A stretch of DNA of 53,235 bases from an uncultured Lachnospiraceae bacterium. Its GTDB lineage: Bacteria > Bacillota > Clostridia > Lachnospirales > Lachnospiraceae. Positions 30,178 to 52,455 of this stretch are shown piece after piece (the first letter of the stretch is position 1; every line of letters starts with the position of its first letter). The DNA lies in the NCBI GenBank assembly GCA_944380315.1, contig CALWHG010000011.1, positions 1 to 53,235 on the forward strand. The letters are read 5' to 3'. Under the pieces are notes generated by a model. It saw nothing but the letters and a program-made list of their open reading frames with translations. It had not been told where the DNA came from and did not search any database. A program made the translations under genes and the position numbers.

Positions 30178-31038
30178 TCAGCAGTCCTCTTCCTCCTCGA
30201 ACTTCTTGAGGATCTTTTCAGCTCTCTCAAGACGCTCCTGCATGAGCTCATGCCATATGGAGGGATCGTAATAGGGGTTGAAGTCCTCAGTCACCTGATC
30301 CTTGAGGAGCAGGATGCCTACCTGATTGGTATGTGAAGGCAGGGTTATGTCCACATCGAACTTGTCCAGCTTCTTGAGTCCATCCACGAACTCGTACATG
30401 AGAGATGAGGGGAGCCCGATCTCCTTGAAGGCCTTCTTGGAGTTCCAGAGCAGTCCCAGTCCGCCGTGCATGCCGCACTTGTAGGTCTTGCCGTCCTTGT
30501 CAGTCACCTCAAAGAAGAAGGAGGTGCAGCCAGGTGTGTGTCCGGGCGTTGATACTGTATGTATGGTCACATTGCCCTGAGTGATGGGCTTGTCATCGGC
30601 ATAGAACTCATCGGGCTCGAACTCTCCGCAGGTATAGCCATCGCAGAATATCAGGTCACGTCTCTCAGTGAGGAAGAAGTGATCCCTCTCACCGAGGTAA
30701 AGCTTTGCGCCGGTGAGCTCCTTCATGGTCCTGGCAGCGCCTATATGATCGCCATGAGCATGGCTCAGGAGTATCTTCTTTATGTCAGTGAGCTCGTAGC
30801 CCAGCTTCCTGATGTTCTCTATCATCAGGTAGCAGGTCTCATGCATGGCGGTGTCGATAAGTATGAGTCCGTCACCTGTGTCGATCAGGTAGCAGGCTAC
30901 CCAGTCGTTTCCGGAGATGTACCATACTCCGGGAGCCATCTTTATGGGCTCCATGTAGGTCTCCCAGGGCTGTCTGCAGCAGTGCTCCATAAGCACGGGA
31001 GCGGGAGGGCTGGTAAGTGAAGTACTGTTTAAAGGCAT
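30178..31038 (-). CDS. Metallo-beta-lactamase-fold hydrolase (B3-like metal site)
   Basis: A 286-residue MBL-fold enzyme with SHAHGDH (zinc motif HxHxDH), PGHTPG (third His) and LPSHTN (last His). The position where many members have a bridging Asp or Cys reads CGMHGGLG, so the ligand set resembles subclass B3. No signal peptide is evident, so it probably acts in the cytoplasm. Family members hydrolyse beta-lactams, lactones, thioesters or phosphoesters. It is the second gene after an SLC13 carboxylate transporter, so a lactonase or esterase step on an imported acid is a reasonable guess, not shown. It has an AAAGGAGA ribosome-binding site. Confidence 0.88.
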   Translation of the reverse strand: MPLNSTSLTSPPAPVLMEHCCRQPWETYMEPIKMAPGVWYISGNDWVACYLIDTGDGLILIDTAMHETCYLMIENIRKLGYELTDIKKILLSHAHGDHIGAARTMKELTGAKLYLGERDHFFLTERRDLIFCDGYTCGEFEPDEFYADDKPITQGNVTIHTVSTPGHTPGCTSFFFEVTDKDGKTYKCGMHGGLGLLWNSKKAFKEIGLPSSLMYEFVDGLKKLDKFDVDITLPSHTNQVGILLLKDQVTEDFNPYYDPSIWHELMQERLERAEKILKKFEEEEDC

Positions 31039-31111: not shown

Positions 31112-32392
31112 TTAGTGCAGCGGGTACAGGATGTATGCCGAGATGGCATATCCAAGTATACTTACCGCCATATACGGTATGGTGAACTTGAGCACCTTGG
31201 CGGGGTTGTATCCGCCGGCTGCAAATGCTACTGCTGCCTCGCCTGATCCTGAAGGAAGAGCTACGTCAGCCATGTTTGCTATACCAGGGATAAGCACCAG
31301 TCCTCTGGGATCCCAGCCAGCTGCCAGTGCAACTGAAGCTACCAGGGGAACGAGCACTGTCTGGCAGGCTGCATTTGACAGGAAGTTGGTCATGATGACG
31401 GTAACTGCAGATATGAGCAGGTACAGAACGAAAGGATTGGGATCTGAACCTATAGCTGTAAGCAGCCAGTCACCTATGAGCTCGGAAGCTCCTGAGGTTC
31501 CAAGGGCATCCGCTACTACCAGTACTCCGGCCATCATCCAGATCATGTCAGTGGTAAGAAGCTGTGAAGCCTCTCTTGCGCTGAGCACTCCGGTCCAGAT
31601 GAGCACCAGGGTAGCTATGGCGGGAGCCAGATACAGGAATCCTCCGATGTTGAAGATCATGACGATCATGGCAAGTATGAATACCACATAGATGATCTTC
31701 TCCTGAGCGGGAGTATAATGTCTTACGTCAAATCTTGAGGTATCTACTGCGTCAGCATTTACCGTGCCGCCATCCTTGGGCATGAGCTTCCATCCAAAGA
31801 GACAGAAGGCGCCTACCATGAGCATGGGGATGATGCAGAAGATGAAGGGCTCAAGCATGGTCAGCTGATACTGGGGATCAGAGATGATGCCCTCATAAAG
31901 TGCATTGATGGTCGCGAAGTTTCCTGCACCGGCACTTACAGGTGTACGGAACTTGAAGCAGGATGCAACTCCCAGCATGGGAAGTATGAGTCTGTAGGGC
32001 GTTACGTTGCCTGTGTTTCCAATCTGCATGGCAAATACTACCATGATGGCCATAACAGCCGTTGAAGGTATGAACTGTGCCAGCAGTGCAGTGAAGAAGA
32101 ACATCATGAGCACGAGCAGTGTGCCGCTCTTGCCCTTTACCTTCTCCATGACTCCTCTGATGCCTGCTATCATGCTGGTCTTGCCGAGCACGTTTCCAAG
32201 CAGTACCATGGGAGCAACCAGGATAACGGTGTTACGTCCAAAGCCGCTGAATGCAGTCTCGATGTCGATGACGCCGGTAAGTGCAAGAACTGCACAGCAG
32301 GTCATGGTTATGACACCGAAGGGCATCTTCTGCCATACGAACATCACCATCATAAAGACTGTGACCGCAAGTACGATATACATATCTTGCAT
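31112..32392 (-). CDS. SLC13/DASS-type carboxylate transporter, copy 1
   Basis: A 426-residue transporter with about 11 hydrophobic segments. It has the two helical-hairpin regions with LPSTAVMAIMV-like and MTNFLSNAACQTVLVPL segments (SNT-like motif in the second half) and LPSGSGEAAVAFAAGGYNP. Such proteins import di- or tricarboxylates or sugar acids. An in-frame ATG at 32413 contains the AAAGGAGG ribosome-binding site, so I place the start at 32392. It heads an operon with the MBL hydrolase, is divergent from a LysR gene, and resembles copy 2 at 47-48 kb. Confidence 0.87.
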   Translation of the reverse strand: MQDMYIVLAVTVFMMVMFVWQKMPFGVITMTCCAVLALTGVIDIETAFSGFGRNTVILVAPMVLLGNVLGKTSMIAGIRGVMEKVKGKSGTLLVLMMFFFTALLAQFIPSTAVMAIMVVFAMQIGNTGNVTPYRLILPMLGVASCFKFRTPVSAGAGNFATINALYEGIISDPQYQLTMLEPFIFCIIPMLMVGAFCLFGWKLMPKDGGTVNADAVDTSRFDVRHYTPAQEKIIYVVFILAMIVMIFNIGGFLYLAPAIATLVLIWTGVLSAREASQLLTTDMIWMMAGVLVVADALGTSGASELIGDWLLTAIGSDPNPFVLYLLISAVTVIMTNFLSNAACQTVLVPLVASVALAAGWDPRGLVLIPGIANMADVALPSGSGEAAVAFAAGGYNPAKVLKFTIPYMAVSILGYAISAYILYPLH

Positions 32393-32414
32393 TAGTGTTT
32401 CCTCCTTTTTCATA

Positions 32415-39252: not shown

Positions 39253-40140
39253 TTATTTCTTTACTATGGATACTCCCGTCATCCTCTCATAGTACTTGAC
39301 CATGGAATCGTGGTCACACATGCCCTCGTCGTGGCACATGAGCTCCTGCATGATCTCCATCATCTGTGCTGCTATGGGCACGGGCATGTTGATGGCATGA
39401 GCCGCATTGAGCACGTTCGTCATGTCCTTGATATGCAGATTGATACGGAAACCGGGCTCATAATTGCCCTCCAGCATCATGGGCACCTTGGCATCCATGA
39501 CCGTAGAGCCTGCAAGTCCGCCCCTGATGGCCTGATATACCAGCTCAGGATCTGCTCCCGCCTTCTTTGCAAAGGTAAATGCCTCTGCCACGGCGCCTAT
39601 GTTGGCAGCCACGATCATCTGGTTGGCCAGCTTAGCTACATTTCCTGAGCCGAGAGGTCCCACATATACGACTGAGCTTGCCATGGCTCCTATGAGATCC
39701 TTATACTTCTCCCAGGTCTCCTTCCTGCCACCGCACATGACTGACAGGGTACCGTCTATGGCCTTGGGCTCTCCACCTGATACGGGGCAGTCCAGGAGCT
39801 CGATGCCCTTCTTTGCAAGCTCTGCTCCTATGGCCTTTGATTCCACCGGATCTATGGAGGACATGTCTATGACTACCGTACCCTCCTTTGCTCCCTCTAT
39901 GACTCCGCCTGCTCCCAGACATACGCTGCGTACGTTAGGAGAGTTGGGAAGCATGGTCACTATGACCTCACACTGCTGAGCGATCTCCGCCGCATTTTTT
40001 GCGCCCTCTGCTCCGAGAGCCACAAACTCATCTATGACCGCCTGCTTATGAGTGGTGACTACCAGCTCATAGCCTGCCTTTATCAGGTTCCTTGCCATGG
40101 GCTGTCCCATGATGCCAAGTCCTACAAATCCGACCTTCAT
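39253..40140 (-). CDS. garR: 2-hydroxy-3-oxopropionate (tartronate semialdehyde) reductase, copy 1
   Basis: A 295-residue beta-hydroxyacid dehydrogenase very like E. coli GarR. It has the nucleotide-binding GFVGLGIMGQPMARNLIKAGY, DCPVSGGEPKAIDGTLSVM (substrate loop), the catalytic Lys in NVAKLANQ and RGGLAGSTVMDAKVPMM. It should reduce tartronate semialdehyde to D-glycerate. The loop after the second strand reads VVTTHKQ where copy 2 has IVNDFVQ; that region sets coenzyme choice, so copy 1 may prefer NADPH. It has its own leader downstream of a terminator, so it may be controlled separately from the operon. Confidence 0.93.
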   Translation of the reverse strand: MKVGFVGLGIMGQPMARNLIKAGYELVVTTHKQAVIDEFVALGAEGAKNAAEIAQQCEVIVTMLPNSPNVRSVCLGAGGVIEGAKEGTVVIDMSSIDPVESKAIGAELAKKGIELLDCPVSGGEPKAIDGTLSVMCGGRKETWEKYKDLIGAMASSVVYVGPLGSGNVAKLANQMIVAANIGAVAEAFTFAKKAGADPELVYQAIRGGLAGSTVMDAKVPMMLEGNYEPGFRINLHIKDMTNVLNAAHAINMPVPIAAQMMEIMQELMCHDEGMCDHDSMVKYYERMTGVSIVKK

Positions 40141-40295
40141 GTCTTATACCTCCTTTTTCCTTCATCATTTACACAGCTATATTATAATATGTTTTATGAC
40201 TCCCGCGTGTTCTTTTTGGTGAAATTCCTGACAATAGATTCACATTCCTGACGAATAAATAACAGACCCTGCGTTCAGTCGAGCTTAAGCAGGTT

Positions 40296-40335
40296 AAAAA
40301 AACAAGCTGCCGCACCTATGACAGTACGGCAGCTT
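40296..40335 (-). terminator. Terminator after garR copy 2
   Basis: AAGCTGCCG (40304-40312) and CGGCAGCTT (40327-40335) form a 9-bp stem; on the minus strand it is followed by G and TTTTTTT (40296-40302). It ends the sugar-acid operon between the two garR copies. Confidence 0.85.
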
Positions 40336-40402
40336 CAGAGGGCTATGCCCTCATGTCAATGTTCATCTGGTCAAGATCGCAGCATTGAGCTATGTCAGGA
40401 TA

Positions 40403-41290
40403 TCACTCCTTAACGATCGATACTCCTGTCATCCTCTCGTAGTACTTGACCATAGCATCGTGATCACAGGATCCCTCGTCATGGCACTTGAGCTCCTGCA
40501 TGATCTCCATCATCTGTGCTGACATGGGTACAGGCATGTTGATGGCATGAGCAGCATTGAGCACGTTGTTGAGGTCCTTGATGTGAAGGTCGATACGGAA
40601 GCCGGGCTTGTAGTTGCCAGCCAGCATCATGGGAACCTTTGCATCCATAACTGTGGAGCCTGCAAGTCCGCCTCTGATAGCCTGATATACGAGCTCAGGA
40701 TCAGCGCCGGCCTTCTTTGCGAAGGTAAATGCCTCTGCACATGCGCCGATGTTTGCAGCAACTACCATCTGGTTAGCAAGCTTTGCTACATTACCGGATC
40801 CAAGAGGTCCTACATAAACTACTGAACCAGCCATAGCCTTGATGAGATCATAGTACTTGTCCCAGATCTCCTTCTTGCCGCCGCACATAACTGACATGGT
40901 TCCGTCGATAGCCTTGGGCTCTCCGCCTGATACGGGGCAGTCAAGGAGCTCGATGCCCTTCTTCTCAAGCTCAGCACCGATCTTCTTTGACTCAACGGGG
41001 TCGATGGAAGACATATCGATGACTACAGTGCCGGGCTTTGCAGTCTCGATAACTCCACCCTCTCCGAGGCATACTGATCTTACATGGGGAGAGTTGGGAA
41101 GCATGGTGATGATAACGTCTACCTTGGTAGCGATATCAGCGCCGTTCTTGCCAGCCTCTGCGCCGAGAGCTACGAGCTCGTCAACTGCGGGCTGAACGAA
41201 GTCGTTTACGATAAGCTCGTAACCGGCCTTGATAAGGTTCTTAGCCATGGGCTTGCCCATGATTCCAAGTCCAATAAATCCTACTTTCAT
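40403..41290 (-). CDS. garR: 2-hydroxy-3-oxopropionate (tartronate semialdehyde) reductase, copy 2
   Basis: A 295-residue paralogue of copy 1, aligned end to end without gaps and close in sequence. It has GFIGLGIMGKPMAKNLIKAGY, GGEPKAIDGTMSVM and KLANQ. An Asp after the second strand (IVNDF) suggests NADH use. Codon choice differs from copy 1: the final Ser-Ile-Val-Lys is TCG ATC GTT AAG here but TCC ATA GTA AAG in copy 1, and this gene broadly prefers ATC, GTT and GCT. That pattern is typical of high expression. It has an AAAAGGAG ribosome-binding site. It follows gudD copy 1 by 153 bases and ends at a strong terminator. Confidence 0.94.
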   Translation of the reverse strand: MKVGFIGLGIMGKPMAKNLIKAGYELIVNDFVQPAVDELVALGAEAGKNGADIATKVDVIITMLPNSPHVRSVCLGEGGVIETAKPGTVVIDMSSIDPVESKKIGAELEKKGIELLDCPVSGGEPKAIDGTMSVMCGGKKEIWDKYYDLIKAMAGSVVYVGPLGSGNVAKLANQMVVAANIGACAEAFTFAKKAGADPELVYQAIRGGLAGSTVMDAKVPMMLAGNYKPGFRIDLHIKDLNNVLNAAHAINMPVPMSAQMMEIMQELKCHDEGSCDHDAMVKYYERMTGVSIVKE

Positions 41291-41443
41291 GTTTGTTCTC
41301 CTTTTCTTAAGAAAATGATATACGACGCAAAGCGTCTCTCAAACCCTCCGGCCGTACGAGTCCGGGGGATGTTGATACAGTTTCATCCCGTCCAGTCGAT
41401 TTTGAAAAGCTCAGACTGGATCCAGTTTCAGCATACTCCAGGA

Positions 41444-42775
41444 TCAGCGTACCAGGCAAGGCTTCTTGGGATCGAACTTCCAGCCGGGTATGAGATACTG
41501 CATGACCTTGGCGTCATCTCTTCCGCCGAGGCAGTTCTTCTCATAGATCTCATGAGCCTTGTAGATCTGGTCCATATCCACCTCGATGCCGAGACCAGGC
41601 TTCTTGGGCACCTCTATGCAGCCATCCTTGATCTGAAGGGGCTCCTTGGTAAGCCTCTCTATACCCTCCTGCCAGATCCAGTGGGTATCCAGTGCATTGT
41701 AGAAGCCGGGCACTGCAGCACCTACATGGGTCATCATGGCAAGTGATATGTCAAAGTGGTTGTTGGAGTGGCTGCCCCAGGTATATCCGAAGTCATGGCA
41801 CATCTGGGCTACTCTTACTGAGCCCTCCATGGTCCAGAAATGAGGATCTGCAAGGATGATGTCAACTGCCTGTGACTCAAGGCTGTGTCCTACCTCTCTC
41901 CAGTCGGTGGCGATCATGTTTGTGGCGGTAGGGAAGCCTGTGCGTCTCCTGAACTCGCTCATGATCTCACGTCCGCTGTATACTCCCTCTGCTCCGCAGG
42001 GGTCCTCACAGTATGTAAGTATACCATGCATGTCCTTGACATACTCAACAGCCTGCTCAAGCAGCCATCCACCGTTGGGATCCAGGTCTATACGAGCCTC
42101 GGGCATGGCCCTCTTGAGAGCCTTTATGACCTCCATCTCCTCGTTTCCGGGAAGGACGCCGCCCTTGAGCTTGAAGTCAACGAAGCCATACTTCTCCTTG
42201 GTAGCCTTTGCAAATGCCACTATGGAATCAGCATCCAGAGCCTCGTGGTGACGAAGCCTGTACCACTCGCAGTCGCTGTCGTCCTCTTCATCGTAGGGAA
42301 GATCAGTCTTTGCCTTGTCTCCTACAAAGAACAGATATCCGAGCACTCTTACCTTGTCTCTCTGCTGTCCGTCTCCCAGGAGAGCCGCTACGGGCACGTT
42401 GAGGAACTGTCCCAGCAGATCCAGGCAGGGGGTCTCTATACCGGTCAGCACATGTACGCCTGTACGAAGGTCAAAGGTCTGATTTCCTCTTACGTCCACC
42501 TCGCCCTTGGCATCCATGAACTGCTTTACCTTGAGCATGGTGTTCTTGTACTCAGCTATGCTGGTGCCCTCTACCAGAGGCTTTACCTCGTTGAGGGTGT
42601 TTGTGATCTTAGTGCCTCCGGGGATCTCTCCCACACCTGTGTGGCCGCTGTCATCATGAAGTATGATGATGTTCCTTGTGAAGTAAGGAGCATGAGCGCC
42701 GCTCAGGTTGAGCTCCATACAGTCCTTGCCCGCTACGGGAAAGACTTCCATCTTGGTTATAACAGGTACTCCCAT
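41444..42775 (-). CDS. gudD: Glucarate dehydratase, copy 1
   Basis: A 443-residue enolase-superfamily enzyme that dehydrates D-glucarate (or L-idarate) to 5-keto-4-deoxyglucarate. It is close to E. coli GudD along its length, including [33 protein letters not shown] and WYRLRH. Catalytic and metal motifs are intact: FKLKGG (KxK), [30 protein letters not shown] and [16 protein letters not shown] lies seven bases before the ATG. It lies 37 bases after gudD copy 2 and is presumably cotranscribed with it. Confidence 0.95.
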
Positions 42776-42812
42776 GTCATATCCTCCTTATATGAAAATG
42801 TCTCCTGCCGGA

Positions 42813-44159
42813 TCAGCGGACCAGACAGGGCTTTTTGGAATCGTACTTCCAGTTTGGTATCAGGTACTGCATGGCCATGGCATCGTCACGGTCGTGGGAG
42901 GAAAGGCTGTTGTAGAGCCTGTTGGCCTCCATGACCCTGTCCATGTCTATGGTCACTCCAAGTCCCGGCTTGTCAGACAGCTCCAGATAGCCGTCCACTA
43001 TCTGAGGAGCATCCTTCAGCAGGTTCTGGCCATCCTGCCAGATCCAGTGGGTATCCAGAGCCGTAGGATGTCCGGGAGCCGCAGCTCCTACCTGGGCAAA
43101 TGCTGCCAGGGTGATGTCAAAGTGATTGTTTGAATGGCTGCCCCAGGTGAGTCCCCAGTCATTCAACAGCTGTGCCATCCTGATGGTGCCGTCAAAGCCC
43201 CAGAAATGAGGGTCCGCAAGGACTATGTCCACGGACTTAAGGGCTGCCGCATGATAGAACTGACGCCAGTCAGTGGCTATCATGTTTGTGGCTACGGGGA
43301 GCTTAACTGCATTTTTGAACTCCGCCATGACCTCACGGCTGGAATAGCCCGCCTCGGGTCCCGTGGGATCCTCTATATAGGTCAGCACATCCTCCATGGG
43401 CTTGCAGAGCTCTATGGCCTCCTGAAGAGACCAGGCACCGTTGGGGTCGATGTTTATGCGACCATTGGGGAAGGCCTTCTTGAGTGCCCTTACAGCCTCC
43501 ATCTCCTCTTCGCCTCTCAGGACTCCGCCCTTGAGCTTGAAGTTGCGGAAGCCGTACTTCTCATGAAGGCACTGGGCCTGCTCGACTATCTGCTCAGGAG
43601 TGAGCATCTCCCTGCGGCGCATACGGAACCAGGGATCTGAGCTCTGGGACTCATCGATATAGGGAAGGTCCTGAGCCTTTTCCTTGTCGCTGACATAGAA
43701 AAGATATCCCAGGGTCTCCACCTTATCCCTCTGCTTGCCGTTTCCAAGGAGCTCGCACATCTGAAGTCCCAGGTACTGGCCAAGCAGGTCAAGGAGGGCA
43801 CATTCTATGGCCCATTCTGCCTTTACCACGAACTTGAGCTTCGATATATCCAGGGTCTGTATGCCCTCACCATCGTCCTCATCGGACTTCCTGCTGGCCC
43901 TGTGTATGCTGTCCAGTATGGCCCTGTACTTTCCTATGGGCTGTCCTACCACCAGAGGGATGACAGAGGTCAGGGCATCACAGGTATAATCTCCTCCGTG
44001 GATCTCTCCTATGCCCGTGTGGCCCGCATTGTCCTTTATGATGACGATGTTTCTGGTGAACCAGGGAGCATGGGCTCCGCTGAGAGTCATAAGCATGCTG
44101 TCATAGCCCGCTACGGGGATGACCTGCATCTCGGTAACTATGGGTGTAGTACTCATCAT
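42813..44159 (-). CDS. Glucarate dehydratase-type enzyme, copy 2
   Basis: A 448-residue paralogue of the preceding enzyme. The active-site set is kept ([38 protein letters not shown]), but the EDPCGAE motif reads EDPTGPEA and WYRLRH reads WFRMRR, so substrate fit may differ. The N-terminal 20s loop (HAPWFTRNIV) is conserved. It may act on glucarate, idarate or another diacid, by analogy with the GudD/GudX pair of E. coli, where GudX is the divergent copy. Its ATG overlaps the lyase stop (ATGA), with AAGGAGG ten bases before. Confidence 0.87.
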   Translation of the reverse strand: MMSTTPIVTEMQVIPVAGYDSMLMTLSGAHAPWFTRNIVIIKDNAGHTGIGEIHGGDYTCDALTSVIPLVVGQPIGKYRAILDSIHRASRKSDEDDGEGIQTLDISKLKFVVKAEWAIECALLDLLGQYLGLQMCELLGNGKQRDKVETLGYLFYVSDKEKAQDLPYIDESQSSDPWFRMRRREMLTPEQIVEQAQCLHEKYGFRNFKLKGGVLRGEEEMEAVRALKKAFPNGRINIDPNGAWSLQEAIELCKPMEDVLTYIEDPTGPEAGYSSREVMAEFKNAVKLPVATNMIATDWRQFYHAAALKSVDIVLADPHFWGFDGTIRMAQLLNDWGLTWGSHSNNHFDITLAAFAQVGAAAPGHPTALDTHWIWQDGQNLLKDAPQIVDGYLELSDKPGLGVTIDMDRVMEANRLYNSLSSHDRDDAMAMQYLIPNWKYDSKKPCLVR

Positions 44160-45055
44160 ATGAGTCCCGCCTCCTTCATGGCCTTCTTCATGGCATCCAT
44201 GGCTGCTCCTTCAGGAGTGGGAAGGCTGGGACGATAGGGCTTGCCCACCTTGAGTCCTCTGTAGCCTGCCATATCCTTTGCGGATACAGGGAAGCTTGCC
44301 TTGTCCATGGAGAGCCTTACGGGGTTGAGCTTGAACTGAGCCTCAAGAGAGCCCTTAATGTCTCCTGCCATGAACTTGTTGTATATGTCCATGATGAGCT
44401 CAGGCATGAAGTTGCCTGCGGTACATACTCCTCCTACCGCTCCTACACAGAGGCTGGAGTAAAGGAGGGTGTCCTTGCCGCCAAATACCTTAAAGCCGAT
44501 GTCCCTGTTCCTCCTGATGAACTCGCTGGTCAGGGTCATGTCTCCTGAGGTATCCTTCATACCTACTATATTTTCCACATCATGAGCTATGCGCTCAACA
44601 AAGTCTGCAGTCATGCCATAGCCCACACGTCCGGGATTGTTGTAAAGGAGCACCGGAGTATTGGGTATGGCCTCTGCTATGGTCTTGAAGTGCTCATAAA
44701 GCTCTGCATCTGTAGGCTTCAGGAACATGGGCTGAAGTATGGATACTCCCGATGCTCCCAGTGACTCAGCCATCTTTGCAAGGCGTACGCACTTCTTTGT
44801 ATTGATGGCACCTATGCCGAAGTATACAGGCACTCTGCCTGCTGCCTGGTCCTTGATGATCCTGAAGCAGCGCTCCATCTCATCCTCTTCCATCTGATAG
44901 AACTCACTGTTGGATCCGAAGGCAAGTATGCCGCTCAGGCCGCCCTCGATGACATAATCCACCTGCTTCCTCATGCCTGCCTCATCGACCTTTTCATCCT
45001 CGTCGATGACGGTCACTATAGGCACGATCACACCCTTGATATAATCCGTGTTCAT
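44156..45055 (-). CDS. DapA-family lyase, candidate 5-keto-4-deoxyglucarate aldolase or dehydratase
   Basis: A 299-residue class I TIM-barrel lyase of the DHDPS/N-acetylneuraminate lyase family. Y138 (LLYNNPGR) and Schiff-base K167 (GMKDTSGD) are present; the substrate loop reads FGSNSEFYQM instead of the GTTGE of true DapA, so it is unlikely to serve lysine synthesis. It lies between two sugar-acid dehydratases and an esterase. The downstream reductases need tartronate semialdehyde, so the simplest role is cleavage of 5-keto-4-deoxyglucarate to pyruvate plus that aldehyde, replacing GarL. The alternative is the decarboxylating dehydratase of Pseudomonas-type pathways, but no dehydrogenase for its product is present. 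Confidence 0.8.
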   Translation of the reverse strand: MNTDYIKGVIVPIVTVIDEDEKVDEAGMRKQVDYVIEGGLSGILAFGSNSEFYQMEEDEMERCFRIIKDQAAGRVPVYFGIGAINTKKCVRLAKMAESLGASGVSILQPMFLKPTDAELYEHFKTIAEAIPNTPVLLYNNPGRVGYGMTADFVERIAHDVENIVGMKDTSGDMTLTSEFIRRNRDIGFKVFGGKDTLLYSSLCVGAVGGVCTAGNFMPELIMDIYNKFMAGDIKGSLEAQFKLNPVRLSMDKASFPVSAKDMAGYRGLKVGKPYRPSLPTPEGAAMDAMKKAMKEAGLI

Positions 45056-45136
45056 CTCTTCTCTGCTCCTTTTTTTGGATAACTGCTGGTTACATTATTT
45101 ACTTAAGCTTTCGCTTCAGCTGCATGCCTTCAGATC

Positions 45137-46915
45137 TCAGATCTCCACCTTATTGCCTTCGTAATAGAGCTCCTTCGTGTCCGGATCCTTGCTGAACTTC
45201 GTAAACCACTCGGTCCAGGCCATCTCACACTCTGTGGGCATGATGGCGTGGGTCTTAAGATCATTTTCCACCAGGCGAAGCAGGGGTACTCCGGCCTTCG
45301 TACTGAAGATAAAGTTGGCGAACTCGCCCTTCTTGAAGCTGCAGTTCTTGCCGCCGTCATTGTAGGTATAGCCGTCCCAGGCGGGAGCAAGCTTGTAGGT
45401 CTCTATCCAGTGATCCGCGAGAGCCTTGCCCTTTTCATCGCCGAAGCCGCCCTTGAAGCCATTGTCCATGAGTCCCAGATTGGCCATGACAGGTATGATG
45501 GAGCTCTCCACATAGGGTCTGGGCTTGCCGGTCTCTATGTCTATGTCCTTGGCTGATACAGGAGCCGTGGCCGCAAAATAATCGGGCCTCAGGGCTGCAC
45601 ATGCCCAGGACATCATGCCGCCTGAGGACTGTCCGCTGGCATATACCCTGCTCAGGTCCACATTGTAATGCTCAGGGAGCCATTTATACAGATAATCTAT
45701 GAAGAGCAGATCATCGGGGCGCTTCTCCTGAGCAGCTCCCGTATTCCACATGGCACGGAACATCTCGTTGGTCACCATGTCGCTGACCTCTCTCTTCCTG
45801 TTGGGAACTGAGGCCTGAGGACAGATGATCATGAAGCCGTACTTCTCAGCCACATAGGCCCAGCCGGAGCGGTCTGCGATCTCATCGGCGCTTCCGCCTG
45901 CTCCGTGAAATACAAATACTGCGGACATGGGCTTGGTCTGGTCTGCAGTCTCAGGCACATATACCCACCAGAGACGTCTGTAGGTATCGCTGCCGTCCTC
46001 CCTGTAGCCTCCTGCCACATCTGCGGTATAGAGCTTGAAGCCCCTCTCCCTTATGTCGGCATTTTTCCTGAGGGCACCGTTTGCATAGCCGGGATACCTG
46101 TATACTCCTGCACAGATCTCATTATAGACCTTCTCACAGTAGTCATATCCGAGGCAGTCTCTCCAGCCTCTGCGGTCAAAGGCCACCCTTGCACAGTAAT
46201 GCTCATCTATGGTGCCTCCCTCTGTGGGATCCCACACCTGAGCGCCGTCCACCTGCCTTGCAGCAGCACTGCTGTGGTCAGCATTTTTATAATAGTCAAG
46301 CTCTCTAAGGAGAGCGTCATCTTCATCCTCTGATACTATCCATACAGGCATCTGGACCTGGGAGGCCATGACTCCGGGCACCTTCGTCTCGGTGGACTCG
46401 AGTCCCTTCTTTTCCTCCTCGGTCATGCCCTTTGAGCCTATGAGGCCCAGAGCAGCCCAGCACCTTACAAAGCATCTTGCCTGCTTTGCCAGTACGTCTG
46501 CCGCATCTCCGTATCCAAAGCCATAGAAGTTTCCGGGAAATGCACAGAAGAAGGGTCTGAAGCTGACATCGGTGTTGAGTGCACTGATATACTCTGCCTC
46601 CTCCTCAGCATCGCCCCAGGCTCCGTCCTTGGGCTCCATCATGACTATATGGAGCTTCTTTTCATCAGCCATCTGCTTCCATCCGCTCTTTACGAGGAAA
46701 TCGTAGGTGTCCTCTCCGCCGGGGATGGTTATGAATATGGTAGGCTGGTTATATACAGTGCCCTCGGGTATGTAGAACTTTGCAGTCCTTATGACCCCCT
46801 CCTTTACGAAGCAGTCAAAGTTATAATATCCGTGAAGCACCTGTCTGTAATAATCCTTGGGATCCACGACGAGGCTGTCGGAATCCGGAAGCTGCTTTGC
46901 CATCATCTTTTCCAT
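45137..46915 (-). CDS. Two-domain alpha/beta hydrolase (PHB depolymerase/feruloyl esterase-like)
   Basis: A 592-residue protein without a signal peptide. The C-terminal half (about 320-592) is an alpha/beta hydrolase of the PHB depolymerase/esterase type: VFVFHGAGGSADE (oxyanion region), then VYASGQSSGGMMSW with nucleophile Ser about 430. The N-terminal half (about 35-200) repeats the pattern, with IFITIPGGEDTYDFL and a nucleophile elbow GFGYGD in which Gly replaces Ser, so that half looks inactive. The ATG at 46915 follows AGGAGA; an earlier in-frame ATG at 46972 lacks one. It lies inside the aldarate operon and may free sugar acids from esters or lactones; this is inference. Confidence 0.75.
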   Translation of the reverse strand: MEKMMAKQLPDSDSLVVDPKDYYRQVLHGYYNFDCFVKEGVIRTAKFYIPEGTVYNQPTIFITIPGGEDTYDFLVKSGWKQMADEKKLHIVMMEPKDGAWGDAEEEAEYISALNTDVSFRPFFCAFPGNFYGFGYGDAADVLAKQARCFVRCWAALGLIGSKGMTEEEKKGLESTETKVPGVMASQVQMPVWIVSEDEDDALLRELDYYKNADHSSAAARQVDGAQVWDPTEGGTIDEHYCARVAFDRRGWRDCLGYDYCEKVYNEICAGVYRYPGYANGALRKNADIRERGFKLYTADVAGGYREDGSDTYRRLWWVYVPETADQTKPMSAVFVFHGAGGSADEIADRSGWAYVAEKYGFMIICPQASVPNRKREVSDMVTNEMFRAMWNTGAAQEKRPDDLLFIDYLYKWLPEHYNVDLSRVYASGQSSGGMMSWACAALRPDYFAATAPVSAKDIDIETGKPRPYVESSIIPVMANLGLMDNGFKGGFGDEKGKALADHWIETYKLAPAWDGYTYNDGGKNCSFKKGEFANFIFSTKAGVPLLRLVENDLKTHAIMPTECEMAWTEWFTKFSKDPDTKELYYEGNKVEI

Positions 46916-46954
46916 ATATCTTCTCCTGAACGATAAATGCTGTTTATTCAATAT

Positions 46955-46980
46955 GGCCCCGTCAAGCTGCATCCGGGGCC
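46955..46980. other. Hairpin between SLC13 copy 2 and the hydrolase gene
   Basis: GGCCCCG (46955-46961) and CGGGGCC (46974-46980) pair perfectly with a 12-base loop. There is no T-tract on the minus strand, so it is more likely a stability or processing element within the operon than a full terminator. Confidence 0.5.
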
Positions 46981-47007
46981 TCTGTATCCCTTATACTTCC
47001 CCGGGCC

Positions 47008-48291
47008 TCAGCCGTATACGGGGAAGAAAAGATTTATGCTGAAGGTAAGTGTGATCAGCGCCAGTATAAGGAACGGTATCGTGAACTTGAGCAGTCCCAC
47101 GGGATTGTGTCTGCCTGCTGCAAACATCAGTGCGCACTCAGCAGATCCGCTGGGGAATGCTATGGCCATGACCGCACCTATCTGTACCATGAGGACGATG
47201 CCTCTGGGATCCATACCTCCTGCGAGAGCCATGCTGGCTGCGATGGGAGTAAGTATGGCCTGAGTACCTGTGTTTGACATGAAGGTAGTCATGACTATGC
47301 TGGTAAGTCCAAATACGAAGAGCACCAGTATACCGTTGGGTGTGGAACCAAGGATAGAAAGTATACCGTTTCCTATGAGCTCTCCGACACCGGACTGTCC
47401 CATGGCATCTGACATAACGAGCACACCGGCGATCATCCAGGTCATGTCTCCAGTGAGCTTATCGATGACCTCTTTTGTAGTAAGAGACTTCGTGATAAGG
47501 AGCACGAGAGCACCGATGGCAGGAGCCACATGCATCAGGTTTCCGATCTTAGTGCCAAGGAAGAAGGCTATCATGACTCCGATAAATACTACTGAGATGC
47601 AGATCTCATCCTTCTTTGATATCTTGGCTGCAGCCACATCCTTTACATCCGAGGTATCTACGGGATGGCTGGGTATCAGCTTCCAGAAGAGCAGGGTGTA
47701 GATGGTCAGGGCTATGCCGGGGATGACGGACACCTTGAAGAAATCCCAGGTCCCAAGCATAAGGCTGGGATCAGAGATAATACCCTCATACATGGCATTG
47801 GCTGTGGGAGCCATGGTCGCGCCCATGGCGATGGGGAACTTGAAGTTCCAGATCGCTATCATGGCGAAGCAGGCGGTTATCATCCTGGAGGGTGACATCT
47901 CATCCGCCTCATCCAGTGAGGATATGAAAAGGATCATGATGGAAAGGACTGCGGTCCTGCCCATGAGCTGACAGAGTACGATGGTTATGCCGAACAGGAA
48001 CAGCATGAGCGCCAGTCCGTTCTTGCCCTTTATCTTCTCCATCTGCTTTCTGATCCGGGTTATAAGGCTCGTCTTTCCGAAAGCGTAAGCTACTACGAAC
48101 ATACCTGCTATAAGTATGGTAGTCTTGTTTGCAACGCCTCCGAAAGCTGCTACTGGATCCATGACACCTGTAAGTCCCAGCAGGGCACAGCAGGTCATGG
48201 TGGTGAGTCCGTACGGCCACTTTCCTATAAGGAAGGATGCTATCATGAAGATAGTAATGGCCAGCACGATATACATCTGCATGTTTTCCAT
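47008..48291 (-). CDS. SLC13/DASS-type carboxylate transporter, copy 2
   Basis: A 427-residue transporter with about 11 hydrophobic segments, sharing architecture and many segments with copy 1 (MTTFMSNTGTQAILTPIAAS; FPSGSAECALMFAAGRHNP). It is the first gene of the sugar-acid operon, so it probably imports glucarate, galactarate or a derivative. E. coli uses an MFS protein (GudP/GarP) for this, so an SLC13-type importer would be a different solution. An AAAGGGGG-type ribosome-binding site precedes the ATG. A promoter lies at 48385-48413. Confidence 0.88.
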   Translation of the reverse strand: MENMQMYIVLAITIFMIASFLIGKWPYGLTTMTCCALLGLTGVMDPVAAFGGVANKTTILIAGMFVVAYAFGKTSLITRIRKQMEKIKGKNGLALMLFLFGITIVLCQLMGRTAVLSIMILFISSLDEADEMSPSRMITACFAMIAIWNFKFPIAMGATMAPTANAMYEGIISDPSLMLGTWDFFKVSVIPGIALTIYTLLFWKLIPSHPVDTSDVKDVAAAKISKKDEICISVVFIGVMIAFFLGTKIGNLMHVAPAIGALVLLITKSLTTKEVIDKLTGDMTWMIAGVLVMSDAMGQSGVGELIGNGILSILGSTPNGILVLFVFGLTSIVMTTFMSNTGTQAILTPIAASMALAGGMDPRGIVLMVQIGAVMAIAFPSGSAECALMFAAGRHNPVGLLKFTIPFLILALITLTFSINLFFPVYG

Positions 48292-48384
48292 ATTAAATTG
48301 GTCCCCCTTTATAAAACCAGATAAAACCGATGTCTCCCATCAACGAATGCAGCTCTTCTTGGAAGACATACTCATTTCAGTAAC

Positions 48385-48413
48385 ATTATAAAACAGGTAC
48401 TTCAATAAGTTAA
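48385..48413 (-). promoter_or_regulatory. Promoter of the sugar-acid operon
   Basis: On the minus strand TTAACT (48408-48413), a 17-base spacer, then TATAAT (48385-48390). The weak -35 overlaps an AATAAGTT element, which suggests activator control. Confidence 0.55.
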
Positions 48414-48450
48414 GCTCATAGAAATAATAATACTCTAAGAAAAACTTATT
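48404..48450. promoter_or_regulatory. Probable LysR binding region between SLC13 copy 2 and its LysR
   Basis: AATAAGTT (48404-48411) and AACTTATT (48443-48450) form an inverted pair 39 bases apart. Within the right arm, TAAG-AAAAA-CTTA (48436-48448) is a second small palindrome. CTTA/TAAG cores also make up the repeats at 32559-32597, fitting two related LysR proteins. Confidence 0.5.
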
Positions 48451-48524
48451 TTGGTATTGATAATTCTTTGCCATGGATTTAAACTCATGATCAGAACGAT
48501 ATATATAGATAAGGAAGGATCAGT

Positions 48525-49451
48525 ATGGATCTCAAGCAGTTAGAATACATAGTGGAGATATCCAGGACGAACAACATCTCCCAGGCGGCTAAAAACCTCT
48601 TCGTATCCCAGTCAGCCCTCAACCAGCAGCTGCTGAAGCTGGAAAAGGAGCTGGGCTGTCAGCTCTTTTACCGGTCCCGCACCAACTGGCACCCCACTCC
48701 CGTAGGCGAGGTATATATAGAAGGTGCAAAAAAGATCCTTCTTATAAAGAAGGACACCTACAGCCGCATAAACGACCTGATGCATGATAGGGAGGCTGAG
48801 CTCAGGCTTGGTCTCGTGCCCCGCCGCGGCATACAGATGTTCACCTCCATCTATCCCAGGCTTCACAAGGCATTTCCAAATGTCAGACTGACTCCCCTGG
48901 AGATGCCTGCCCGGGAACAGCAGGAGGCCATAAAAAACGGAGACATCGATCTCGGCTTCATGACCCTGAGCCGTGAGCAGATGAATGACGACATCTATGA
49001 GTTCGTGGGCAAGGAGGAGATGATACTCTTCTGCCCTGCCATACACCCTGTATGCGACCGCATAAAGGAGGACTATGAGCTGCCTGTCATAGACATAAGG
49101 GAGTTCCGCTATGAGCCCTTTGCCATCATGTACCAGGGCTCCACCATCAGGCCCATATGCGACAGGATATTTGCAGAGGCAGGCTTCGATCCGGACATAC
49201 TCATAGAGACCTCCACCACCTCCAGCATCCCGGCCCTGGTGGCCTCTAACCTCTGTCTGGGCATAGCCCCCAGATACTATCTGGACCCCAAGGATACCCG
49301 AATAAGGGCATTTGCCTTAAAGGGCCACCCCACCTGGGATCTGTGCATCAGCTACAGGAGGAAGAGCTACCTGTCAGACGCTGCCGCGGAGTACATACGG
49401 CTGGCCGGTGAATACTGGAAGCAGGTGCTTCCGCCGGTGCAGAAAAACTGA
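48525..49451 (+). CDS. LysR-family regulator of the sugar-acid locus
   Basis: A 308-residue LysR protein with winged helix DLKQLEYIVEISRTNNISQAAKNL and FVSQSALNQQLLKLEKELG, then the ligand domain (LGLVPRRGIQMFTSIYPRLH; GSTIRPICDRIFAEAGF). It is paralogous to the LysR at 32.6 kb. It lies between the divergent SLC13-led operon and garD, so it likely controls both sides, with a sugar diacid as inducer by analogy. AAGGAAGG precedes the ATG. The gap to garD is 154 bases. Confidence 0.93.
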   Translation: MDLKQLEYIVEISRTNNISQAAKNLFVSQSALNQQLLKLEKELGCQLFYRSRTNWHPTPVGEVYIEGAKKILLIKKDTYSRINDLMHDREAELRLGLVPRRGIQMFTSIYPRLHKAFPNVRLTPLEMPAREQQEAIKNGDIDLGFMTLSREQMNDDIYEFVGKEEMILFCPAIHPVCDRIKEDYELPVIDIREFRYEPFAIMYQGSTIRPICDRIFAEAGFDPDILIETSTTSSIPALVASNLCLGIAPRYYLDPKDTRIRAFALKGHPTWDLCISYRRKSYLSDAAAEYIRLAGEYWKQVLPPVQKN

Positions 49452-49498
49452 GCCTTATATCTATAACTTTTAGCATTAGACCCATTGATATTTTTAAG

Positions 49499-49528
49499 TT
49501 TACTTGCGCCCCTTTACTTGTATATACT
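49499..49528 (+). promoter_or_regulatory. Repeats and -10 element upstream of garD
   Basis: TTTACTTG occurs twice (49499-49506 and 49513-49520), followed by TATACT (49523-49528). There is no good -35, so garD expression probably needs an activator such as the adjacent LysR. Confidence 0.45.
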
Positions 49529-49605
49529 TTTATCATACGATGCAGAGCCGCCAGGACTCCGCAGATCATCGTCATATCCTGCACAGGCGGCGAAAGGAGA
49601 TATAT

Positions 49606-51120
49606 ATGGCAAGACTTTTTGTTAAGATCAAGGATCAGGACAATGTGGCCATAGCCGTAAAGGACATAAAGGCCGGCACAGTCATATCTGAGGACCTGAC
49701 TGCCCTTGAGGACATACCTCAGGCCCATAAGATAGCCCTCTGCGACATACCCAGGGGCGGCGAGATCATACGCTACGGAGTAGTGCTCGGCTATGCCATA
49801 GATCCCATAAAGAAGGGACAGTGGATCAACGAGCATATGCTGGAGCTCCCCACTCCTCCGGATGTGGACAACATGGAGTTCGCCACCAACATAGTCACTG
49901 ACCTTCCGGAGCCCCCGGTGAGGACCTGGGAGGGCTACCGTAACCCCTGGGGAGGCCCCGCAGGCACCCGAAACATCCTGGGCATCAGCACTACGGTACA
50001 GTGCGTGACCGGTGTGCTCAACGTGGCCGTGGAGCGCATGAAAAAGGAGCTGCTCCCCAAGTATCCCAATGTAGATGATATCGTGCCCATCAACCATGCC
50101 TATGGCTGTGGCGTGGCCATAAACGCTCCCGAGGCCAAGGTGCCCATCAGGCTCCTCAAGAACCTGTCAAAGCACCCCAACTTTGGCGGACAACTCATGG
50201 TAGTGAGCCTGGGCTGTGAAAAGATGACCGTGGACATGCTCTGTGACGAGGCAGACATCACTCCCGACAATGTCATAGTCCTTCAGGAAAAGCATGGCTT
50301 TGACGAGATGATCTCCGCTCTCATGGAGATGGCAGATAAAAAGCTTAAGATATTAAACGAAAGAAGACGTGAGACTCTGTCCCTTTCAGAGCTTGTGGTA
50401 GGCATGCAGTGCGGAGGCAGCGATGCATTTTCAGGTGTCAGCGCCAATCCTTCCGCAGGCTATGCTGCAGACATGCTGGTCAAGGGCGGCGCCACAGTCA
50501 TGTTTTCCGAGGTCACCGAGGTCAGGGACGGAGTATACCTCCTGGCAAACCGCTGCGTGGATGAGCAGGTCGGCAAGAAGCTTGCCGCTGAGATGAAGTG
50601 GTACGACAACTATCTCAAGGAGGGCGAGGTAGACCGCAGCGCCAACCCCACCCCCGGCAACAAGAAGGGCGGCCTTGCAAATATCGTGGAGAAGGCCATG
50701 GGCTCCATAGCAAAGTCCGGCACCTCTCCCATAGTTGAGGTACTCTCTCCTGCAGAGAAGCCTACGAAGCACGGCCTCATATATGCGGCCACTCCTGCCA
50801 GTGACATAGTCTGCGGCCCCTGCCAGCTGGCTTCCGGCATAGGACTCCAGGTATTTATGACCGGCCGCGGCACACCCTACGGCCTTGCCATAGCTCCCGT
50901 CATAAAGGTGTGCTCCAGAAATGAGATGAAGGAGCTCTGGCCTGATCTGATAGATGTAAATGCAGGCCCCGTGGCCACAGGCGACGCCACCATAGCCGAC
51001 ATCGGCACTGAGCTCTTCAATGAGATCATAGATGTGGCCAGCGGAAGGAAGCAGAGCTTTGCCGAGAAGTACAAGCTCCACAACGACCTCTGCATCTTCA
51101 ATCCTGCCCCCATAACCTGA
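49606..51120 (+). CDS. garD: Galactarate dehydratase
   Basis: A 504-residue UxaA/GarD-family dehydratase converting galactarate (mucate) to 5-keto-4-deoxyglucarate. It matches E. coli GarD throughout: an N-terminal SAF-like domain (VKIKDQDNVAIAVKDI, IPQAHKIALCDIP), then GTRNILGISTTVQCV, YGCGVAINAPEA, SLGCEKM, ELVVGMQCGGSDAFSGV, EVTEVRD, NPTPGNKKGGLANIVEKA and LIYAATPASDIVCGP. Conserved cysteines probably bind the metal. The ATG has AAAGGAG upstream; longer in-frame starts lack one. It is separately transcribed from the glucarate operon and feeds the same intermediate. A terminator follows. Confidence 0.96.
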   Translation: MARLFVKIKDQDNVAIAVKDIKAGTVISEDLTALEDIPQAHKIALCDIPRGGEIIRYGVVLGYAIDPIKKGQWINEHMLELPTPPDVDNMEFATNIVTDLPEPPVRTWEGYRNPWGGPAGTRNILGISTTVQCVTGVLNVAVERMKKELLPKYPNVDDIVPINHAYGCGVAINAPEAKVPIRLLKNLSKHPNFGGQLMVVSLGCEKMTVDMLCDEADITPDNVIVLQEKHGFDEMISALMEMADKKLKILNERRRETLSLSELVVGMQCGGSDAFSGVSANPSAGYAADMLVKGGATVMFSEVTEVRDGVYLLANRCVDEQVGKKLAAEMKWYDNYLKEGEVDRSANPTPGNKKGGLANIVEKAMGSIAKSGTSPIVEVLSPAEKPTKHGLIYAATPASDIVCGPCQLASGIGLQVFMTGRGTPYGLAIAPVIKVCSRNEMKELWPDLIDVNAGPVATGDATIADIGTELFNEIIDVASGRKQSFAEKYKLHNDLCIFNPAPIT

Positions 51121-51194
51121 TACGGAAAGGCAGGCCAATATAGCAACGTAAGCTCCTATACATACTGATAGAGCCCCTTGCGGGCGCAGATAAA

Positions 51195-51229
51195 AAGGAC
51201 CCGGCTTCCCCTTGCCGAGTCCTTATTTT
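51195..51229. terminator. Terminator between garD and the CofE-like gene
   Basis: AAGGAC (51195-51200) pairs with GTCCTT (51219-51224), with an inner CGGC/GCCG stem and one mismatch. T-tracts occur on both strands, so it can serve both convergent genes. Confidence 0.8.
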
Positions 51230-51264
51230 ATGTATCTGCTATGTAAAATGTATCAGTATGGAGA

Positions 51265-52455
51265 TCAGTCTACCGCGAAGGTATCGAAGTAGCCCTGTAT
51301 GAAGACTATGGGCGTACCCTTGTCTCCCGAGCCTGAGGTCAGATCACAGAGAGAGCCGATGAGATCTGTCAGTCTGCGGGGCGTGGTGCCCTCTGACTTC
51401 ATGACGCCCACAAGGTCAGCCTCCTTCTTTGTGATGGCCTCCTTCATGGCCTCGTTGAGCTCCTCTCCCTTGAGATCCTTGAACTCAGTATCAGCCAGGT
51501 ACTTGAGCTTGAGCTCATTGGGACGGCCTGAAAGTCCCTCTGTATATGCAGGGCTTACTACAGGATCAGCCAGCTCCCAGATCTTGCCCATGGGATCCTT
51601 GAACGCTCCGTCGCCGTAGATCATGCAGTTCATCTTTACTCCGGTAGCCTTTTCAAGGCTTGCCTGAAGCCTGTCCACGAAGCTCTGGCAGTCTCTGGGG
51701 AAGAGCTTGACGCTGTCCTCAGTAGCCTTGTTTGAGCCATAGAGTCCATAGGACTCGTTGTAGCCGCTGTCTCCCACAGGCTCAGCCATGATGTCAGCCA
51801 GGGTGAGCACCCTCCTTGCTCCCGCTGCCGTCAGGCGGCGTCTGGAGCGCTCCCTGGTATGTATGTCACAGCAAAGCACCTGATCCGTATATGACAGTAT
51901 GGCCCTGACATCATTTGCAAAAATGAACTCAGTCTCGCAGCCCTCTGCCTTGAAGAGCTCCTTGTAGAACTCCACATAGTCAACACCTGTGAAGGGATGT
52001 ACGGTATAGCCGAACAGCTCCCTGTAGCGCTCCTCAGTGAGCACATCCCTGTAGGGATCCACTCCCTTCTCGTCCAGCAGATCATCATCGAAGAGTTGGT
52101 TGCCTACCTCATCGGAGGGATAGCTCATAAGGATATATGCCTTCTTGAATGCCTTTGCTATGCCCTTGAGGCAAACCGATATCCTGTTGCGGCTGAGTAT
52201 GGGAAAGGTGATGCCTATCTCCTGGCCATCAAACTTGCTCCTGCAGCATGCTGCTATGTCATCGGTAGTAGCATAGTTTCCCTGGGTCCTGGCCACGACC
52301 GCCTCTGTAACTGCGACTATATCCTTCTCATGAAAAGTCACATGCTCCTCACGGCCCATGTTTACGATAGCCTCTGTAGCTATCTGTACCATATCATCGC
52401 CCTGCTTTACCACGGGGCATCTGACACCTCTTGAAACGACTCCGACTGTCCTCAT
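51265..52455 (-). CDS. CofE-like F420-0:L-glutamate ligase family protein
   Basis: A 396-residue protein of the family annotated as coenzyme F420-0:gamma-glutamyl ligase. It has VVSRGVRCPVVKQGDD near the start, DIVAVTEAVVARTQGN, IVFIQGYFDTF at the end, and middle motifs NRISVCLKG and GDGAFKDPMG. True CofE enzymes add glutamates to F420, a cofactor not expected in this organism, and are about 250 residues, so this longer clostridial form probably ligates an amino acid to another molecule. GGAGG lies six bases before the ATG. It is monocistronic, with its own promoter and a terminator downstream. Confidence 0.75.
   Translation of the reverse strand: MRTVGVVSRGVRCPVVKQGDDMVQIATEAIVNMGREEHVTFHEKDIVAVTEAVVARTQGNYATTDDIAACCRSKFDGQEIGITFPILSRNRISVCLKGIAKAFKKAYILMSYPSDEVGNQLFDDDLLDEKGVDPYRDVLTEERYRELFGYTVHPFTGVDYVEFYKELFKAEGCETEFIFANDVRAILSYTDQVLCCDIHTRERSRRRLTAAGARRVLTLADIMAEPVGDSGYNESYGLYGSNKATEDSVKLFPRDCQSFVDRLQASLEKATGVKMNCMIYGDGAFKDPMGKIWELADPVVSPAYTEGLSGRPNELKLKYLADTEFKDLKGEELNEAMKEAITKKEADLVGVMKSEGTTPRRLTDLIGSLCDLTSGSGDKGTPIVFIQGYFDTFAVD

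Follow-up and report, generated by a model that had tools for sequence, protein, structure and literature searches.

A GudL-type aldarate cluster in an uncultured Lachnospiraceae bacterium, with a DapA-family lyase in the probable place of GarL

We examined a putative aldarate catabolic cluster in an uncultured Lachnospiraceae bacterium (GenBank assembly GCA_944380315.1). The window, by which we mean the whole stretch of DNA that was analysed, comprises positions 1 to 53,235 of contig CALWHG010000011.1, and the gene at issue encodes a DapA-family lyase, GudL, that probably takes the place of the HpcH/HpaI-family aldolase GarL. Seven genes lie on the minus strand and would be transcribed in the order SLC13 carrier, hydrolase, lyase, gudD2, gudD1, garR2 and garR1 (Table 1). 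Successive gaps of 35 and 81 bases lead to the lyase gene, whose end overlaps the start of gudD2 by 4 bases, and gaps of 37, 153 and 262 bases follow; these spacings fit an operon arrangement. The genes for a LysR-type regulator and for GarD are oriented opposite to this set. Profile searches located every gene named in an earlier sequence-only reading of this DNA at its place and matched each to its family. The start of garD at 49594 is a codon that we chose, and the open reading frame listing gives a TTG start at 49504.

Table 1. Genes of the cluster, with the profile or structure matches on which their names are based
Feature	Position	Strand	Evidence
GarR copy 1, tartronate semialdehyde reductase	39253-40140	minus	NF008592 449 bits, cut-off 397
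GarR copy 2, tartronate semialdehyde reductase	40403-41290	minus	NF008592 462 bits, cut-off 397
GudD-type dehydratase 1 (GudD1)	41444-42775	minus	TIGR03247 732 bits, below cut-off 828.7; closest PDB structure is the glucarate dehydratase 4hyr (798 bits)
GudD-type dehydratase 2 (GudD2)	42813-44159	minus	TIGR03247 650 bits, below cut-off 828.7; closest PDB structure is the glucarate dehydratase 4g8t (588 bits)
GudL, class I aldolase of the DapA family, probably cleaving 5-keto-4-deoxyglucarate	44156-45055	minus	PF00701 201.5 bits; M110, Y138, R143, K167, K194
Hydrolase, 611 residues, C-terminal half esterase-like (GQSSGG serine motif)	45137-46972	minus	NF050058 109 bits, below cut-off 150
SLC13/DASS (CitMHS-like) carrier, probable aldarate importer	47008-48291	minus	PF03600 117.5 bits; TIGR00785 88 bits, below cut-off 198.6
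LysR-type regulator, divergent from the operon	48525-49451	plus	PF00126 and PF03466
GarD, galactarate dehydratase	about 49594-51120	plus	TIGR03248 767 bits, cut-off 730.85

The lyase matched PF00701 only and contained no HpcH/HpaI domain in a Pfam profile scan. Its AlphaFold model (predicted local distance difference test score, pLDDT, 94.8) is a TIM barrel, and structures of DHDPS and YagE match it at template modelling (TM) scores of about 0.92-0.95. An enzyme of this kind has a published precedent. Levy et al. (Nat Commun 2025;16:1121; PMC11775122) gave the name GudL to a DapA-like putative 5-keto-4-deoxyglucarate aldolase of Enterocloster clostridioformis. Its gene complements an Escherichia coli garL deletion, K167A abolishes complementation and K194A lowers function without abolishing it, while gudL of Fusobacterium nucleatum complements partially; M110 and K194 are stated to be universal in the GudL clade (PMC11775122). 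This was the sole paper on GudL and glucarate that we found in the openly licensed literature.

Consistent with these data, M110, Y138, R143, K167 and K194 are all present in the window lyase and in 49 of 49 aligned clade sequences. A 67-protein tree gave 100/100 support to the clade that holds the window lyase together with Enterocloster (L047, L060), Hungatella and Flavonifractor proteins, GudL of E. clostridioformis itself lying outside the sample. On sequence grounds, the window protein belongs to the GudL enzyme clade that is already described in print. Y138, K167 and the GSNSE loop (G47 to E51) sit where the sequence-only reading had placed them. The loop, which that reading had called unusual, is a local peculiarity: residue 50 is Gly in 46 of the 49 clade members and gapped in one, and Ser occurs there only in the window lyase and in a 91%-identical protein of Candidatus Avilachnospira avicola (locus L044). 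As a functional clue the loop was rejected, because L044 alone shares it. A plasmid search with the lyase returned 32 records, all below 60% identity, of which the 15 listed were at 32-36%.

The absence of GarL asserted in the sequence-only reading held at both scales. None of the ten proteins scanned between 39253 and 52455 is a GarL, and in the window genome (G000; 2.19 Mb, 95% complete) the GarL model matched nothing at E up to 0.001. Two HpcH-family matches occur in this genome. The one on contig C49 is CitE (374 bits to the citE profile, below the cut-off of 443 and far ahead of the next model) and adjoins the citrate lyase acyl carrier protein CitD, and the one on contig C25 scores 26 bits within a 484-residue protein read as pyruvate kinase. 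A hidden GarL within the window genome was therefore rejected. A glycerate kinase (TIGR00045, 458 bits) is encoded on contig C34, which allows the pathway to run through to phosphoglycerate.

The same reading had proposed a search of related genomes for this lyase together with garR and without garL. We assembled 48 clade loci (L028, L044-L089, L092) that were found by the lyase alone, from a wider scan that kept the best 80 of 96 loci, and counted neighbour homologues by blastp at E up to 1e-30 within the available flanks. A GarR homologue was present in 38 of the 48 loci, GudD in 24 and GarD in 17; among the 22 loci with more than 20 kb available, 20 had GarR and 18 had GudD or GarD. Glycerate kinase homologues of type I occur in 18/48 flanks and of the MOFRL type in 6/48, two sets that may overlap. 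GarL exceeded its cut-off (406.75 bits) in none of the 47 genomes with clade members and in none of the 196 genomes sampled from the order. On 14 control genomes the same model was over cut-off in one, presumably E. coli, and gave matches of any strength in E. coli, L. lactis and H. volcanii. The window extends the GudL users already known by one lineage, and across genomes clade members co-occur with GarR but not with a GarL over cut-off.

We take the window locus to be a GudL-type gud/gar cluster in which the lyase would split 5-keto-4-deoxyglucarate in place of GarL, and we put the probability of this reading at about 0.92. The SLC13 carrier would probably import an aldarate, a substrate that we infer. 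GudD1 and GudD2, acting on glucarate, and GarD, acting on galactarate, would each yield 5-keto-4-deoxyglucarate by dehydration. GudL would bind its substrate as a Schiff base at K167, Y138 probably acting as proton shuttle, and release pyruvate and tartronate semialdehyde; GarR would reduce the latter to glycerate, and the glycerate kinase from contig C34 would complete the route. We likewise infer the activity and regulation of the window copy of gudL, the part of Y138 and any role of the hydrolase. The proposal that a DapA-family lyase replaces GarL for this cleavage is thereby supported and agrees with published GudL (PMC11775122). The novelty that the sequence-only reading implied for such a non-homologous replacement does not survive: the swap was reported in 2025, with complementation of the E. 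coli garL deletion (PMC11775122), so that the inference looks correct and is no longer new.

Several observations weigh against this assignment. Ten of the 48 clade loci have no GarR within the available flanks, and three have none of GarR, GudD and GarD: L028, where the lyase lies at a contig end, L086 with 3.3 kb available and L059 with 17 kb. Some of the counted homologues are distant, such as GarD of L092 (33% identical) and GudD of L085 (35%). HpcH-family matches below cut-off (E up to 0.001) occur in 44 of the 196 order genomes (best 231 bits) and in 24 of the 47 clade genomes (best 151 bits), as against the 406.75 bits required, and since the window genome is 95% complete a gene could possibly have been missed. 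The published support for GudL is complementation without identification of the product, and the enzyme is termed putative (PMC11775122). Finally, residue numbering and the sequences of other Enterocloster members are the basis for the apparent identity with E. clostridioformis GudL.

Three other activities were considered for the lyase. A KdgD-type 5-keto-4-deoxyglucarate dehydratase/decarboxylase would make 2-oxoglutarate semialdehyde, and GarR would then serve another substrate. KdgD shares the superfamily, the substrate and also the catalytic Lys/Tyr pair (PMC13398020), and its profile does match the window lyase, at a score that misses both KdgD cut-offs by far (TIGR03249, 104 versus 374 bits; NF002958, 110 versus 278 bits). 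Gene context points the same way: the operon carries two copies of garR, the flanks of clade loci include glycerate kinase homologues, and no aldehyde dehydrogenase, such as one for 2-oxoglutarate semialdehyde, is among the ten proteins at 39253-52455, the rest of the genome not having been searched for one. Moreover, clade members complement garL in print (PMC11775122). KdgD identity was ruled out by score and gene context, and we regard it as very improbable.

The window lyase is the sole PF00701 match in its genome, so an ordinary DapA role in lysine synthesis, alone or combined with aldolase activity, was a real possibility, all the more as TIGR00674 is its best NCBIfam model. Its score of 183 bits lies below the cut-off of 206, which alone is weak evidence because three of six scanned lyases from gar loci of two further lineages (B1 and B2, described below) exceed that cut-off. 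The C-terminal domain of DapB (PF05173) had no match in the 95% complete genome, and the lyase gene sits inside an aldarate operon. The missing DapB match and the missed cut-off together make lysine synthesis unlikely, and it was rejected as the role of the lyase; we consider a DapA function, single or dual, even less probable than KdgD. As a separate observation, the classical lysine/diaminopimelate route seems absent or incomplete in the window genome, whose one DapA-family match is GudL and which has no DapB match. DapA-family aldolases are often promiscuous, and YagE is the second-ranked structural match of the lyase model, as might be expected if the enzyme cleaved a different 2-keto-3-deoxy acid arising in the same locus. 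The neighbouring genes, by contrast, fit making the GudL substrate and consuming the GudL product, and all GudL marker residues are present; a YagE-like activity is accordingly about as improbable as a DapA one.

The SLC13 carrier together with the esterase-like hydrolase hints at another route to aldarates. Among the 48 clade loci, L044 is the only one besides the window with both genes in the cluster; its proteins are 86-98% identical to those of the window and its hydrolase copy 87%, and the window presumably comes from the same genus. The carrier had no match at 1e-50 in the 195 other genomes of the order. The window genome encodes no fewer than nine carriers of the SLC13/CitMHS type (9 scored out of 24 initial candidates), namely that of the cluster and eight at 39-50% identity, one of them at 31112-32413 in the window and the others on contigs C16, C6, C2, C34 and C3 (L128-L135). 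Several of these paralogues adjoin sugar-acid or ester-cleaving genes (three UxuA-like genes, one enolase-superfamily gene and two alpha/beta hydrolases), an arrangement that favours a sugar-acid role for the carriers by association alone. We found no paper joining glucarate with an SLC13 transporter in the openly licensed literature. The second carrier in the window adjoins a gene (30178-31038) for a metallo-beta-lactamase-fold protein whose best model is subclass B3 (160 bits, below the cut-off of 240); since a gene of this fold also lies beside a carrier in L141, a carrier-linked role is as likely as any other for this protein. At the other side of the cluster, garD adjoins a gene (51265-52455) for a CofE-like F420-0:gamma-glutamyl ligase family protein (PF01996, 174 bits), which is present in L044 too and scores far below the cut-offs for true CofE.

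The C-terminal part of the hydrolase had 11 PDB matches (E 2e-10 to 5e-3), including LC-Est1C, three feruloyl esterases, an acetylxylan esterase and S-formylglutathione hydrolases. One paralogue (47% identity) in the window genome lies directly behind another CitMHS carrier (contig C2, 17236-19020; L136, 7240-9024). For the hydrolase, searches of the 195 other order genomes (1e-40) and of 397 other phylum genomes (1e-30) gave no match. A structure model built from three aligned sequences (mean pLDDT 57.5) was too poor to use. Dicaffeoylglucaric acids occur in Eupatorium (PMC6253889), and the hydrolase could possibly free aldarate from plant phenolic esters such as these.

Lyases resembling GudL extend beyond the published clade. 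A match at 1e-50 to the window lyase was found in 22 of the 196 order genomes. GarD was over cut-off in 14, 12 of which carry a GudL or GudL-like lyase: the clade (clade A) GudL in the window genome, lineage B1 in six (L029-L034) and lineage B2 in five (L037-L041). The remaining two, 79% and 86% complete, had no match (G111) or a more distant lyase only (G167). Lineage B1 is sister to GudL (99/98), and lineage B2 forms a separate clade (100/100) whose position is unsettled in the 67-protein tree. An independent origin of B2 was not supported: a topology test did not reject clade A, B1 and B2 as one clade (approximately unbiased test, p-AU 0.442), nor did it when a third lineage, L164, was added (0.382). 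Both B1 and B2 retain M110, Y138 and K167; in B1 lyases residue 194 is Thr or Ser and residue 143 is Lys, and in B2 lyases residue 194 is Arg and the loop reads GTTGE. Thr/Ser or Arg replaces the published marker K194 in the GudL-like lyases of L029-L034 and L035-L041, which belong to gar clusters. B1 clusters L030-L032 encode a CdaR-like regulator, GarR, GudD, a tripartite carrier, GarD, the lyase and a MOFRL-type glycerate kinase (family names assigned from L030); they come from three genomes of one genus, are nearly alike and are hardly independent. Such a gene set favours the same cleavage in the absence of K194. L164 has Met110 and Lys194, in a more distant cluster with homologues of GarR, glycerate kinase, GarD, a tripartite carrier, GudD and CdaR.

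We judge the odds slightly in favour of DapA-family 5-keto-4-deoxyglucarate aldolases being broader than the published GudL clade, with at least two more lineages, a dispensable K194 and several solutions for binding the distal carboxylate. Lyases without K194 in gar clusters call the published marker rule into question, and with them the number of aldarate users may grow. A further set of DapA-family lyases (L156, L158-L161, L166), with Phe or Tyr at 110 and Arg at 194, has GarR-like reductases and TctA homologues (29-35%) within the same 20 kb, where GudD and GarD had no match; it possibly serves a related pathway for another acid.

Collectively, the window cluster is very probably a GudL system with an altered partner set, built around an enzyme clade already in print. 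As in E. clostridioformis, the gene for the DapA-like aldolase shares an operon with garR and no garL accompanies it; K167, M110 and K194 carry the same numbering, and GudD, GarD and GarR homologues are present (PMC11775122). By contrast with the published cluster, which has GarABC, an ABC transporter (PMC11775122), the window has the SLC13 carrier and the hydrolase gene, together with tandem gudD, likewise seen in 4/48 clade loci, and tandem garR; the window lyase also has Ser instead of the Gly of published GudL at residue 50. Other systems stand further away. E. coli GarL uses metal-dependent class II aldolase chemistry, and the same reaction is predicted for the window lyase from a different protein family. 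KdgD, within the DHDPS superfamily and on the same substrate, carries out dehydration with decarboxylation instead of aldol cleavage. Going by the name that NCBIfam gives it, HpaI-NOT-DapA (TIGR02313) is a DapA-family member whose role is filled elsewhere by an HpcH-family aldolase; it serves a different pathway, and the window lyase scores 171 bits against its cut-off of 397.

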